Below, in pieces: positions 48,889 to 57,186 of a stretch of DNA of 57,279 nucleotides (positions are counted from its first letter, which is position 1; each line of letters opens with the position of its first letter). Source of the stretch: Lachnospiraceae bacterium (GTDB lineage: Bacteria; Bacillota; Clostridia; Lachnospirales; Lachnospiraceae). The DNA lies in NCBI GenBank assembly GCA_017518185.1, contig JAFWWB010000086.1, forward strand, positions 1 to 57,279, written 5' to 3'. The notes beneath the pieces are model-generated. The model had not been told where the DNA came from, searched no databases, and was given only the letters and a program-made list of their open reading frames with translations. Made by a program: the position numbers and the translations under genes.

Positions 48889-48899
48889 AAGGAGGCTTG

Positions 48900-51116
48900 A
48901 TGAAAAGGCCGTTGTGTTTTTACTGCCTTCTCTTTCTGCTCCTTCTCCGTATCGTGCTGGCCCTTTCCGGTCCGCCTTCCGGCGGATGGGAGAAATATAC
49001 CGGTAGCACGGTAACCATAAGCGGACGTGTTGAGAAGAAAGAGATCAGGAACGGAAACAGGATCTTCTACCTGAACGGCACTGCTGTCAGCAGTGCGGGA
49101 TCACAGAAAAAAACGGATACGGGAATAGTCTGTTACCTGGAGGAAGGCGTGCTGCCGCCTCTGGGGGCACAGGTCTGTATAAGTGCGAAGCCGGGGGCCT
49201 TCAGGAAGGCGACAAACCCGGGAGAATTCGATATGTATTCCTACTATCTGTATCAGGGCTACGGAGCCAGGGCTTATATCAGCGGATATGAGCTGGCATC
49301 CGGAAGCTATTCCCGGTTCAGGGAGGGACTCTGGAATCTCAGGAACTATATGAGCGGCATCTATGGGAGCATACTTCCGGATGAGGAGGCCGGGGTACTC
49401 CGGGCCATGGTGCTGGGAGACAAAAGCGAGCTTTCGGGAGACATAAAGGAACTTTACCGTGTAAACGGCATAAGCCATATACTGGCTATATCCGGGCTTC
49501 ACATATCTATACTCGGAATGGGGCTGTACAAGGCTCTGAGAAAGAGCGGCTTACCCATCAGCATTTCGGCCCTCGTGGCCATACCATTTATGGCTGTATA
49601 TGCGATGCTTACGGGAGCGGGGACCTCAACGGTCAGGGCCGTTACCATGTTCGGCATAGTGGTGGCCGCGGATATCGAAAGGAGAAGCTATGACCTGCCC
49701 ACGGCCCTTGCGGTATCTGCAGCGGGAACGGCGCTGTACCAGCCCTATCTTATCATGACATCCTCCTTTGCACTGTCATATCTTGCAGTGGCGGGAGTGG
49801 CGGTTTATTATCCGGCGATGATGAGGGATACTGAAAACGGCAGTGGCCTTGGGGCTGCGTTTTTCAAGAGCTTTACCGCAAGTCTCTGCGTCAGCATGTT
49901 TACCATGCCGCTCATCGAGCTCTTCTATTATGAGCTGCCACTGTACTCCGTGCTCCTAAATCTGCTGGTCATACCGCTTATGAGCGTGCTCATGGTATGC
50001 GGGCTCATTGCGCTCACTGCCGGCTGTTTTCTGCTGAAGGCCGGTATAGTGCTGGCCCTGCCCTGTCATTATATACTCATGCTATACGAGACGCTGTGCC
50101 TCAAGCTTGCCTCACTTCCGTGGCACAGCATCATAACCGGGGCTCCCGCCGGCTGGCAGGTGGCGGCGGCTTATGCTCTTTTCATAGCCGTGATCCCTGT
50201 GAGGAAAGGGCTGGTGATAAGGGCCGGAAAGAAGGCGGGGGGCAGGAGGCTTAAACAGAAGGAGGCAGCGGCTTTAAGGATCGTGTTCAGCCTGGCAGCC
50301 GTGCTCATACTAAACCTGCGTATCAGGCCGGAATCCAAATTTACGATGCTGGATGTGGGTCAGGGTGACGGGATCTGCCTGCAGACGGGAAGGACGACGC
50401 TGATGATAGACGGAGGCTCTACTTCAAAGGACGCGCTCTATGACTACCAGCTGTCCCCCTTTCTGAAATACAGCGGTATCTCTTACATAGACAGGTGGTT
50501 CCTAAGCCACCCTGACCGGGATCATATCTCCGGGCTTACGGATATGCTAGCGGACCCGGGCAGGAATATAGGCATAGGCAGCATCGTGCTTCCGGCGGCT
50601 GCCGGGGCGGCAGAGGATTTCAGTGAGATCATCACTGCGGCGAAGGCACAGGGTATAAGGATAGAATACATGGCTGCCGGGGATGAACTGGGATACGGGG
50701 ATCTGAAGATAAGGAGCCTGCATCCGGCGAAGGGATATAAATGTGAGGATGTGAATGAATATTCACAGATACTGCTGGTAGAGTATAAAGATTTCAGCGG
50801 AGTATTTACCGGTGACGCCACGGTGGAGAGCGAAGCGGCAGTGATGAAGGCATATCCCCGGGGGATAGATGCCGATGTGCTGAAGCTCGGTCATCACGGG
50901 TCGCACACGTCAAATTCGGAGGAGTGGCTTGAGTTGGTATCACCTGAGTCCGTACTGATATCCTGCGGTTATAAGAATTCCTACGGCCATCCTCATGAAG
51001 AGGTGATGGAAAGAGTGGAAGCCCTGGGATGCAGGGTTTACCGTACCGATCATGACGGCGCCGTGACAGCGGTTATCCATAATGGGAAGGTAAGAATAGA
51101 GGTGTTCTGCAAGTGA
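48900..51116 (+). CDS. comEC: ComEC/Rec2 DNA-uptake channel protein
   Basis: Membrane channel for single-stranded DNA in competence, 738 aa. An N-terminal DUF4131-like outer domain is followed by the Competence domain (YRVNGISHILAISGLHISIL, about residue 185 on) with about ten spans, and a C-terminal beta-lactamase-like domain: FTMLDVGQGDGICLQT, the metal-site motif LSHPDRDHISG (His537) and LKLGHHGSHTSNSEEW. AAAGGAGG sets the ATG at 48900. The last part of its coding region (51025-51066) is copied at 52470-52511, beyond the repeat-nuclease unit. The gene itself looks complete. Confidence 0.95.
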   Translation: MKRPLCFYCLLFLLLLRIVLALSGPPSGGWEKYTGSTVTISGRVEKKEIRNGNRIFYLNGTAVSSAGSQKKTDTGIVCYLEEGVLPPLGAQVCISAKPGAFRKATNPGEFDMYSYYLYQGYGARAYISGYELASGSYSRFREGLWNLRNYMSGIYGSILPDEEAGVLRAMVLGDKSELSGDIKELYRVNGISHILAISGLHISILGMGLYKALRKSGLPISISALVAIPFMAVYAMLTGAGTSTVRAVTMFGIVVAADIERRSYDLPTALAVSAAGTALYQPYLIMTSSFALSYLAVAGVAVYYPAMMRDTENGSGLGAAFFKSFTASLCVSMFTMPLIELFYYELPLYSVLLNLLVIPLMSVLMVCGLIALTAGCFLLKAGIVLALPCHYILMLYETLCLKLASLPWHSIITGAPAGWQVAAAYALFIAVIPVRKGLVIRAGKKAGGRRLKQKEAAALRIVFSLAAVLILNLRIRPESKFTMLDVGQGDGICLQTGRTTLMIDGGSTSKDALYDYQLSPFLKYSGISYIDRWFLSHPDRDHISGLTDMLADPGRNIGIGSIVLPAAAGAAEDFSEIITAAKAQGIRIEYMAAGDELGYGDLKIRSLHPAKGYKCEDVNEYSQILLVEYKDFSGVFTGDATVESEAAVMKAYPRGIDADVLKLGHHGSHTSNSEEWLELVSPESVLISCGYKNSYGHPHEEVMERVEALGCRVYRTDHDGAVTAVIHNGKVRIEVFCK
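51025..51066. repeat. Direct repeat flanking the nuclease unit, left copy (end of comEC)
   Basis: These 42 bp code for the GCRVYRTDHDGAV stretch of ComEC. They match 52470-52511 at 38 of 42 positions in the same orientation. Confidence 0.85.
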
Positions 51117-51170: not shown

Positions 51171-51357
51171 GGCTAACACAAACGGTGATATCGAGTCATG
51201 TATTAGCTGAAAATGGCTTTTTAGCTACTGAATCCGGGAATGTTGGCTAACACAATAATTGAAACCGGGAGATGTGTTAGCTGTGCAGGGCTTACGGCTT
51301 GTGAAAAAAGGAAAAATTGGCTAACACGGAAATAAAAAAATGTGGGGTGTGTTAGCC
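51171..51357. repeat. Upstream array of three 74-bp-spaced inverted repeats
   Basis: Three hairpin units lie between comEC and the nuclease gene. Left arms GGCTAACACA start at 51171 and 51245, and GGCTAACACG at 51319: exact 74-bp steps. Right arms: TGTATTAGCT at 51199, TGTGTTAGCT at 51273, TGTGTTAGCC at 51348. Loops are 18, 18 and 19 nt with differing sequence, and linkers between units are 36 nt. The linkers are only partly conserved, with GCTT at linker positions 8-11 in both. Confidence 0.92.
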
Positions 51358-51374
51358 GAAGGAAAGGAGGAACT

Positions 51375-52190
51375 ATGATAAGGGAGAAGGAAATAGACAA
51401 TGAGATCTGTTTTCTGCAGGATAATCTGGAAAAACTGTATGATGAGATCGGACATCTGAGAGCTAAGACGCCTGAAGGCGTAAGACTGCGGGCGGTCAGA
51501 CATGGTGACAGATTCCAATACTTTATGAGACATCGCGGTGAAAGAAACAATGGTGAATACATTAAGCAAAAAGATGTAAAGCTTGCCGCGATGCTGGCAC
51601 AGCTTGAATATGATGAAAAGCTGATCAGCATTATCGAACAGGCTGTGGAATCCCTTGAAATGTGTAAAGAGTCACTGCCGGATACAGTTTTTAATGAGGT
51701 TCTCAGGCAGATCGCCCCCGGGAAAAAAGAACTCATACAGCCTTGTTATGTTAGTGATGAGATCTATATCAAAAGCTGGAAAGAGCAGGAATATGAGGGC
51801 GTGGCGTTCAGAGAGGAAGCGGCGAAATACTACACGCGTCGCAGTCTCAGGGTAAGGTCCAAGTCGGAGGTCATGATCGCGGACATCCTGGATGAAGCGG
51901 GGATACCGTTTCTTTATGAGAAACCGCTAAAGCTGAAGCATACTACGGTCCATCCTGACTTTACGCTTCTGAACGTACGGGAACGGAAGGAAATATACTG
52001 GGAGCACTTCGGAATGATGGATGACAGGGAGTACAGGGACAATGCATATATCAAAATACGGGAGTATGAGGAGAGTGGATTCTACCAGTTCGACTCCGTG
52101 ATCCGCACATTTGAAACTTCCAGATATCCGCTGAATACAAGGGATATACGAAAGATGGTAAAGCTGTTGAAGGAGAAAATTACAGTGTGA
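51375..52190 (+). CDS. Putative PD-(D/E)XK-like nuclease between repeat arrays
   Basis: A 271-aa protein with no signal or membrane span. Residues 1-100 are helical and charged. Residues 155-265 carry a restriction-endonuclease-like pattern: Glu165 in RSKSEVMIADIL, Asp195 in TVHPDFTLL, and Glu210 in EIYWEHFGMMDD, then a helix and a late ETSRYPLNTRDI. The lysine of a canonical (D/E)XK is not obvious, so activity is uncertain. AAAGGAGG at 51363 sets the start. No promoter is clear, and the message may come from comEC readthrough, which would include the hairpin array. It is the only gene in a unit bounded by repeat arrays. Confidence 0.75.
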   Translation: MIREKEIDNEICFLQDNLEKLYDEIGHLRAKTPEGVRLRAVRHGDRFQYFMRHRGERNNGEYIKQKDVKLAAMLAQLEYDEKLISIIEQAVESLEMCKESLPDTVFNEVLRQIAPGKKELIQPCYVSDEIYIKSWKEQEYEGVAFREEAAKYYTRRSLRVRSKSEVMIADILDEAGIPFLYEKPLKLKHTTVHPDFTLLNVRERKEIYWEHFGMMDDREYRDNAYIKIREYEESGFYQFDSVIRTFETSRYPLNTRDIRKMVKLLKEKITV

Positions 52191-52200
52191 GTAATGGTGC

Positions 52201-52460
52201 GGCTAACACATGGGGGGGCTTTGGGGCTTGTGTTAGCCGATAACTGCTTGTTTTCCGGGGAATTGCGGGCCGCTGGCTAACACAGGAACTGAAAACCGAA
52301 AAAGTGTTAGCTGAAATCAGCTTGATAGACCTCAAATCCGGTGCTGACAGCTAACACTAAAGCGGAAAATGACAATTGTGTTAGCTGAACTAGCCCGGAA
52401 ACATAAAAAATAAGGGGAGTTGGGCTAACACAAGAGCGATAACAAAGGCGTGTGTTAGCT
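52201..52460. repeat. Downstream array of four 74-bp-spaced inverted repeats
   Basis: Left arms start at 52201, 52275, 52349 (AGCTAACACT) and 52423: exact 74-bp steps. Right arms TGTGTTAGC or close variants start at 52229, 52303 (AGTGTTAGC), 52377 and 52451. Every loop is 18 nt and every linker 36 nt. In linkers, AA at positions 23-24 and G at 29 are constant across both arrays and GCTT at 8-11 is in four of five, so this is a degenerate 74-bp tandem repeat with a strongly kept dyad. The first unit has perfect 10-bp arms. The array fills the 304-bp gap after the nuclease gene. Confidence 0.93.
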
Positions 52461-52469
52461 TGGGGAGGA

Positions 52470-52511
52470 TGGGATGCAGGGTTTAACGTACCGACTATGA
52501 CGGCGTCGTGA
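52470..52511. repeat. Direct repeat flanking the nuclease unit, right copy (comEC remnant)
   Basis: This copy of the comEC end reads GCRV, stop, RTDYDGVV in the matching frame: the Tyr codon TAC became TAA. It runs into the 3' end of the convergent tmcAL gene, whose last codons lie within it. Confidence 0.85.
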
Positions 52512-56133: not shown

Positions 56134-56241
56134 CAATTATTGAGCTGCGTTCCGCAGCACCTGACAGGTTTCCTGCAGGCTATTTCAAACTATTATATTG
56201 AAACTACAGGCAAGATACAGTACAATGAAGGGAGATTTTCT

Positions 56242-57186
56242 ATGGTAAATCGAGAACACAAAGACCGGCTTTTTAAAATGATCTTCGGAAGAGAAGAGCA
56301 TCGGGAATGGACGCTGAGTCTGTATAACGCAGTGAACGGTACAGATTACGATGATCCGTCACAGATCGAATTCAATACGCTGGAAGATGGATTATATCTG
56401 GGAATGAAAAATGATATGTCCTTCATTCTGGACGACCAGCTGATGATCTACGGACATCAGAGCACGTATAACCCGAATGCTCCGGTCCGCTGCCTGATCT
56501 ATTTGGGAGATTTATGGAGTGGATTACTGTATGGCAGGGAAACAAACAGTATATACGGAAGTCGTCTGATACGCCTTCCTGCTCCGAGATTTGTTGTTTT
56601 CTATAACGGAACAGAGAAAGCAGACGAGGAGATCGTACTGAAACTCAGTGAGGCGTTCACGGAGGAAACACGTAAAAAGTCGGATGTTGAACTGAGTGTA
56701 CGTATGGTGAACATAAACAGCGGTTATAATATGAAATTACTGGATAAATGCCGCCCGTTGTATGAGTATTCGTGGTTGATCGCAAGGATCAGGGAAAACC
56801 TGAAGACCATGAAAATAGAGGAAGCAGTCGACAGAGCATTGGATGATATGCCGGAGAACTTTCTTATCAGGAGGTTTTTGATGGAAAACAGAGGTGCAGC
56901 ACATCTGAGTATCCTGACAGAGTATGATGAGGAAAAGGTAAAGCGTACTTACAAAGATGAAGGCAGGGAAGAAGGCAGCGAACATCGCCTGATCGATCAG
57001 ATATGCAAGAAACTGAGAAAAGGGAAAAATGTCAGACAGATAGCGGATGAGGTAGAGGAAGATGAGACGCTGGTACAGAAGATCTGCGACATAGCCGAAG
57101 CGTTTGCCCCGGAGTATGAAACGGAGAAGGTGTTCGATTCCGTGCAGAAAAAATCGCCTTGCAAAATAGTGTCGAATCTGTCATGA
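56242..57186 (+). CDS. Rpn family recombination-promoting nuclease/putative transposase
   Basis: A 314-aa protein of the PD-(D/E)XK Rpn group, common in many copies in Lachnospiraceae. It begins with the family's REHKDRLFKMIFGREEHREW, then SLYNAVNGTDYDDPSQIEFN and a middle nuclease core (MSFILDDQLMIYGHQST; RFVVFYNGTEK). The C-terminal 60 residues are a charged helical tail (EEGSEHRLIDQICKKLRKGK). AAGGGAGA sets the start at 56242 rather than an upstream one at 56140. E. coli RpnA relatives cut DNA and promote recA-independent recombination; the function here is inferred from that family. Confidence 0.88.
   Translation: MVNREHKDRLFKMIFGREEHREWTLSLYNAVNGTDYDDPSQIEFNTLEDGLYLGMKNDMSFILDDQLMIYGHQSTYNPNAPVRCLIYLGDLWSGLLYGRETNSIYGSRLIRLPAPRFVVFYNGTEKADEEIVLKLSEAFTEETRKKSDVELSVRMVNINSGYNMKLLDKCRPLYEYSWLIARIRENLKTMKIEEAVDRALDDMPENFLIRRFLMENRGAAHLSILTEYDEEKVKRTYKDEGREEGSEHRLIDQICKKLRKGKNVRQIADEVEEDETLVQKICDIAEAFAPEYETEKVFDSVQKKSPCKIVSNLS

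Follow-up and report, generated by a model that had tools for sequence, protein, structure and literature searches.

The stretch of DNA analysed here, hereafter the window, comprises 57,279 nucleotides (nt) of a Lachnospiraceae bacterium (assembly GCA_017518185.1, contig JAFWWB010000086.1, positions 1 to 57,279 of the forward strand). Downstream of comEC/rec2 it carries a gene for a putative nuclease of 271 amino acids (aa) with inverted repeats (dyads) on both sides (Table 1). Taken together with its relatives, this arrangement speaks, as far as sequence can tell, for a self-spreading genetic element of a kind not described before, and no description of such a system was among the open-literature results listed.

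A first-pass annotation, made from the letters alone, had reported seven hairpin units around one gene, and all seven were located, three before and four after it. The pitch of 74 base pairs (bp) was recovered start to start in five of five within-array steps, and the loops of 18 nt (19 in unit 3) and linkers of 36 nt were measured as claimed. The common arms it described hold for the left side, where GGCTAACACA stands in 5 of 7 units, while the right arm is less uniform, with TGTGTTAGCC in two units, TGTGTTAGCT in three and a one-off variant in the other two. Its picture of variable filler within rigid spacing was borne out by the mean pairwise identity of the units (0.91 in arms, 0.38 in loops and 0.43 in linkers), a pattern of arms and spacing apparently held while the filler drifts. 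Allowing one mismatch, 11 of the 13 occurrences of GGCTAACACA in the window lie inside the arrays, and 100 dinucleotide shuffles yielded 2.0 occurrences on average and never more than 7; a chance origin of these dyads is therefore excluded.

Table 1. Coordinates of the nuclease locus and adjoining features in the window
Feature	Position	Strand	Remarks
Dyad unit 1	51171..51208	.	arms 10 bp, loop 18
Dyad unit 2	51245..51282	.	74 bp from unit 1
Dyad unit 3	51319..51357	.	loop 19; end 17 nt ahead of start codon
Dyad unit 4	52201..52238	.	
Dyad unit 5	52275..52312	.	
Dyad unit 6	52349..52386	.	
Dyad unit 7	52423..52460	.	
Nuclease gene	51375..52190	+	271 aa from ATG; coding 51375-52187 plus stop
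comEC/rec2	48897..51116	+	host gene whose 3' end precedes the element; TIGR00361 E 8e-79
Second copy of comEC 3' end	52470..52511	+	42 bp, 90% to 51025-51066; begins 9 bp after last dyad

Dyad arrays across the family and their helical phasing

Of 299 genomes sampled from the GTDB family, 100 carry a homologue match (E up to 0.001), and the window's own genome holds no second homologue at that threshold. The set of 181 loci was built with the best 80 of 228 relatives from a contig search and 100 further loci from the family survey, places near contig ends being skipped; 176 rows entered the protein alignment, five loci with fewer than 200 aa being left out. Those best 80 come mostly from Lachnospiraceae or other Clostridia-type bins, the remainder from Treponema and other spirochaetes. 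In a phylum-wide sample of 299 genomes, full-length matches (E up to 1e-8) occurred in four, all of the same family, and nine more genomes matched only part of the profile, chiefly the nuclease domain. Viral contigs and plasmids gave no full-length match, and phage records gave one match, a relative covering 77% of the query on a 4.2-kb faecal contig labelled bacteriophage (MT839528.1, 413-1036). Treponema loci (L092, L095, L103 and others) carry the family alongside Lachnospiraceae, and this double occurrence suggests transfer between phyla in animal guts.

Whether homologues have flanking dyads had been put forward as a check of the first-pass annotation. A de novo search up to 1200 nt from the gene detected clusters of at least three like dyads in 125 of the 181 loci; a further 26 loci have two and 30 have none, while block-shuffled flanks gave three or more in 0/181. 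Half of the 56 loci below three dyads (28) are still periodic above the shuffled maximum. The arrays lie upstream only in 88 loci, on both sides in 25 and downstream only in 12, with up to 20 dyads per locus, and the arms, mostly 8-13 bp long, differ in sequence among lineages (L104 and L150, which encode identical proteins, are counted once in the 120).

The spacing of the dyads follows the DNA helix. Leaving out steps below 40 or above 115 bp, which are chiefly missed units, 511 of 534 dyad-to-dyad steps in 121 arrays deviate by at most 1.5 bp from a whole multiple of 10.5 bp, as compared with 27 for multiples of 11.0 and 25 for multiples of 10.0. The steps occupy 50-54, 62-65, 69-76, 83-86, 94-96 and 102-108 bp, corresponding to classes of 5-10 turns (some 10-turn steps being two 5-turn steps with one unit missed), and the intervals 55-61, 66-68, 77-82, 87-93 and 97-101 bp are empty. 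A fit in which each step takes the class given by rounding to 10.5 has a slope of 10.454 bp per class; the best period is 10.4-10.5, with a phase of 0.08 bp at 10.5, which none of 5000 smooth-null draws reached. Turn classes are also mixed inside single arrays, as in L078 (73/84) and L096 (54/64/74) and further in L094, L101, L107, L181, L185, L188, L231, L232 and L233, which by their measured steps show the 10.5-bp rule within single loci, and on the protein tree 27 changes of turn class are needed. The outer span of the dyads has medians of 35.5-40.5 bp over the six classes (range 29-46; 111 of the 121 arrays, those detected in a long-gap register being left out); since it stays steady, the whole-turn differences between classes come from the linkers. 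Read in this way, the quantisation of the steps is B-DNA phasing, and dyads placed at whole turns lie successively on the same helix face. The earlier suggestion of about seven helical turns was right for the 74-bp pitch and extends to 5-10 turns across arrays, and the selection on geometry that it had proposed is supported by the same steps.

The nuclease, its arms and arrays without the gene

The protein is laid out as an N-terminal helix/beta-hairpin/long-helix domain (about residues 1-122) and a C-terminal PD-(D/E)XK/VSR-like nuclease domain (about 128-271). Residues S162, K163, E165, P194, D195 and Y208-W-E-H211 are invariant in 52 aligned proteins. The PADLOC model HEAT_CxxC_PDDEXK is matched by 26/52 members (best E 1.4e-8), and the nuclease domain resembles the PADLOC candidate families PDC-S68 (52/52) and PDC-S69 (48/52). 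For the C-terminal half of the AlphaFold2 (AF2) model (pLDDT 93), the best alignments, with middling Z, are to homing-endonuclease, Bax1, TnsA and Vsr domains. Profile matches and model alignments thus agree with the PD-(D/E)XK-type nuclease predicted in the first-pass annotation.

We found that the arm sequence follows the protein. Arms are alike in 16 of 17 pairs at more than 70% protein identity and in about 1-2% of pairs below 40%; L089/L090, 99% alike, were scored against this rule because the L089 array went undetected. When the nuclease domain is allowed for, arm similarity still follows the N-terminus (0.27, 0/2000; 694 pairs among 98 loci, identity 42-90%). By residue, the signal lies in 31-92, with a maximum of 0.32 at 61-80, and also in 1-26 (0.17-0.22), and it ranges from -0.14 to 0.08 in windows from residue 127 onward. 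Within genomes, arms are alike in 2 of 54 pairs (19 genomes with two or more arrays fetched), and one genome, G073, equated with G628 by contig coordinates, has six paralogues with six different arms. These sequence comparisons show arms private to each nuclease lineage, following the N-terminal domain chiefly at 31-92 and also at 1-26, and they support the predicted repeat-bound nuclease unit.

Arrays also occur away from the gene. Exact searches located arrays with the nuclease's own arms, and no nuclease, elsewhere in five of six genomes (G627-G630 and G236). The exact dyad pattern is found 19, 20, 22 and 13 times in the genomes of L065, L067, L068 and L084, a few of these being isolated single dyads, and the reversed-pattern control 0 times. 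Eleven fetched arrays without a nuclease match, several of them orthologues of one another, hold 49 units at a pitch of 72-74 bp; 95/98 arms are exact (units were seeded on exact matches, and L275, L277, L278 and L279 touch contig ends), and identity is 73% in loops and 62% in linkers. Two orthologous arrays, L276 and L279, have 5 and 7 units and their edge units match, therefore the middle gains or loses units. In G236, from a distant clade, there is an orphan array at 52-53 bp with outlying copies, and no nuclease match in the fetched 10 and 3.5 kb. The window's genome has a second array at about 3690-4165 of contig 84 (L282), in which six exact units and one more, altered in an arm, follow each other at a pitch of 73 bp; it shares the 7-bp core GCTAACA with the dyads of the window, has no nuclease nearby and is a candidate target of the window protein. 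The first-pass annotation had held that the same repeats at places without the gene would make the association one of chance. Such repeats do exist, but arrays with the local nuclease's own arms in five of six genomes point away from chance and to a trans-acting system.

Host genes and possible traces of transfer

The gene upstream of the nuclease on the same strand is comEC in 35/181 loci and guaA in 8, while lysS, tuf and rpsI each account for 4; several other loci are cut by contig ends and cannot be judged. The nearest upstream open reading frame (ORF) of at least 180 aa is on the same strand in 105/153 loci. Neighbour labels cluster on the protein tree (FastTree), with 11 changes for 7 groups, a number that 0/200 shuffles were as low as, and the comEC, lysS and tuf labels need several changes each. 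The tree and the neighbour calls show the gene recurring downstream of the same conserved genes on several branches, and the simplest reading is that separate lineages would have reached the same host gene, to which losses could contribute. Among 14 other genomes of the window's genus with comEC retrieved, 4 carry the element there; of the other 10, 3 have a contig end shortly behind comEC. One genus relative (L119) has a solitary GGCTAACACA-18-TGTGTTAGCC dyad after the comEC stop, followed by the contig end.

Mosaic sequences were found at comEC. L040 and L042 have in common a block of 93% identity. It starts within comEC, 276 nt from the end of that gene in L040 and 231 nt in L042, spans the array and the nuclease gene, and ends about 10 nt past the nuclease stop. 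Identity rises sharply some 200 nt ahead of the comEC end, and at the protein level ComEC is 88% identical over the last 40 aa, 65% over the 40 before them and 24-33% further on. Four loci (L071, L075, L076 and L077) lean in the same way (57-75% in the last 40 aa, 27-46% in the main part), where baseline pairs have 45% and 29%. In L045/L063, the ComEC proteins are 88% identical and the nucleases 57%. Homing with co-conversion of the flank, together with element replacement, would leave traces of these kinds. The second copy of the comEC 3' end behind the last dyad of the window (Table 1) is a possible insertion scar. That copy overlaps the 3' end of a convergent nucleotidyltransferase gene. 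Further along, the window ORF 56239-57186 has no Pfam match at 1e-5; by eye it resembles Rpn-type PD-(D/E)XK transposases.

A proposed self-spreading element and its alternatives

We consider it probable that the locus is a small self-spreading element that combines a single nuclease gene with the DNA sites read by its protein. Binding, cleavage and mobility are predictions from sequence, and the mechanism is a proposal. Two protomers would read one dyad through the N-terminal beta-hairpin and the following helix, with the long helices pairing, and neighbouring dimers would stack side by side along one face of the DNA, cooperating. The C-terminal VSR/homing-type nuclease might then nick or cut the array, or the unoccupied 3' end of a host gene, and repair of the break would copy gene and array into that site, as in homing with flank co-conversion, and now and then copy or expand array units elsewhere. 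Binding beside its own start codon probably also regulates the nuclease gene. The wider claim, of a new mobile-element class in which a homing-type nuclease has a private phased-dyad "address", fills it as a one-face cooperative filament, seeds it elsewhere in the chromosome and moves from species to species into the 3' ends of comEC, guaA, lysS, tuf and rpsI, stands in our judgement evenly balanced between true and false.

Several observations weigh against a self-spreading element. The survival of the nuclease's own sites intact beside it is left unexplained. The nearest upstream ORF of at least 180 aa is on the opposite strand in 48/153 loci, and the mreB group is found 5' of mreB. Only one pair (L040/L042) has a clear co-conversion signature, and the family-wide test is unspecific (ComEC tail 0.207, 80/2000; body 0.19, 64/2000). 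Distances of nuclease and ComEC are weakly congruent (0.253, 14/2000), therefore vertical inheritance plays a part. Unoccupied comEC 3' ends occur in the genus, but their divergence hides any junction, and no empty and filled alleles close enough for comparison were found. Exact search gave no orphan array in G297, and orthologous orphan arrays are common to related species and therefore old. Foldseek gave no match at E up to 0.001 with the whole model or the N-terminus. Finally, homologues without repeats, which the first-pass annotation took as a sign of chance association, do exist as a minority: 28/181 loci lack both dyads and periodicity, and for 20 of these the sequence extends 600 nt or more on each side.

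A host-serving DNA-binding nuclease, with a role in chromosome organisation, defence or restriction of incoming DNA and with arrays kept by selection as docking or sequestering sites, is an alternative that we regard as rather unlikely. It would agree with orphan arrays at orthologous places in related species whose arms hardly vary while loops and linkers drift, with nuclease residues invariant in 52/52 proteins, with the domain likeness to PDC-S68 and PDC-S69, and with the commonest neighbour found, comEC, being a DNA-uptake gene. However, the patchy spread in the family and at comEC in the genus, the private arms of most paralogues, the recurrence by the unrelated guaA, lysS, tuf and rpsI, and the mosaic pair L040/L042 are more in keeping with a mobile element. 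That the protein autoregulates its own gene only, the repeats being operators and otherwise passive tandem duplications, seems very improbable: the last upstream dyad lies at a median of 102 nt from the start codon (150 nt or less in 69/113), but arrays of up to 20 dyads are more than autoregulation needs, and some lie solely downstream of the gene or, as orphans, far from it. Least probable of all is a transcribed array of hairpin RNAs or an RNA-guided system with loops or linkers as guides, which the first-pass annotation had offered and which tandem stem-loops with variable fillers adjoining a nuclease, at least partly upstream of it in 113/125, would suit, since arm mismatches have no clear G-U preference (G.T 144, A.C 119, other 370, of 6882 cells; 45 arrays leaning toward G.T and 37 toward A.C; the mismatch spectrum alone is informative, the dyads having been picked for pairing), the pitches follow B-DNA turns within and between arrays and not the A-form period near 11 bp, a fixed mismatch breaks pairing in some arrays (L037), the fillers of many arrays are diverged copies of each other, and Rfam has 0 matches in the window at gathering scores.

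The closest known parallel to the self-spreading element is REP/RAYT. According to PMC2817692 and PMC3116915, one enzyme gene is there flanked by inverted palindromic repeats that co-evolve with the enzyme, and REP, BIME and REPIN repeats are regularly spaced, alternate in orientation and have dispersed copies without the gene. In the window family, too, inverted repeats cognate to the enzyme lie around its gene and evolve together with it, and in five of six genomes by exact search they are dispersed. It differs in that the enzyme is a predicted PD-(D/E)XK/VSR-like nuclease, whereas RAYT is a tyrosine (HUH) transposase; Pfam matches of the window protein up to E 10 include no Y1 transposase, and only one histidine, H211, is invariant in 52 proteins. 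Its arrays are locked to 10.5-bp turns, and while REPs usually exceed 100 copies per genome, 13-22 exact dyads were counted in each of four genomes here. By the tests made the element is not a RAYT, and it appears to work like REP/RAYT and a homing endonuclease together.

For homing endonucleases the comparison draws on a review (PMC3943268). The window family is a candidate for the EDxHD (VSR-like) group, which includes I-Bth0305I, and differs from such enzymes in that it lies outside introns and inteins, is found in cellular genomes, carries arrays of its own predicted sites and has an N-terminal domain of another build. In contrast to TnsA of Tn7, the sites form long arrays rather than marking two ends, and no second element gene was recognised among the Pfam matches listed for 60 neighbour proteins, without a directed TnsB/C search. 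TIGR-Tas also has a compact array of stem-loop or alternating short repeats adjoining one effector; according to PMC12045711, it has a Nop domain and arrays that make 36-nt guide RNAs with 9-nt spacers. The loops of 18-19 nt and linkers of 36 nt found here are not dual 9-nt spacers, and the window protein has no Nop match in Pfam (E up to 10). Unlike CRISPR-Cas, the repeats are inverted and the fillers are diverged copies within many arrays; Cas models match single family members only (best E 0.003), neighbours being covered by the Pfam matches listed, with no cas-directed search.

In these arrays the helical repeat of DNA is imprinted by evolution in intergenic sequence, and phased arrays would record in nature how proteins stack on DNA. 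Natural pairs of a small domain and its site, of which the family has many, may be used for learning a recognition code, and the system is testable with one purified protein and synthetic DNA. If the proposed element is real, it would parallel REP/RAYT by convergence while using an unrelated nuclease, it would offer very many orthogonal protein-arm pairs, six of them in one genome, and it would account for unannotated repeat arrays in the genomes of Lachnospiraceae and Treponema.
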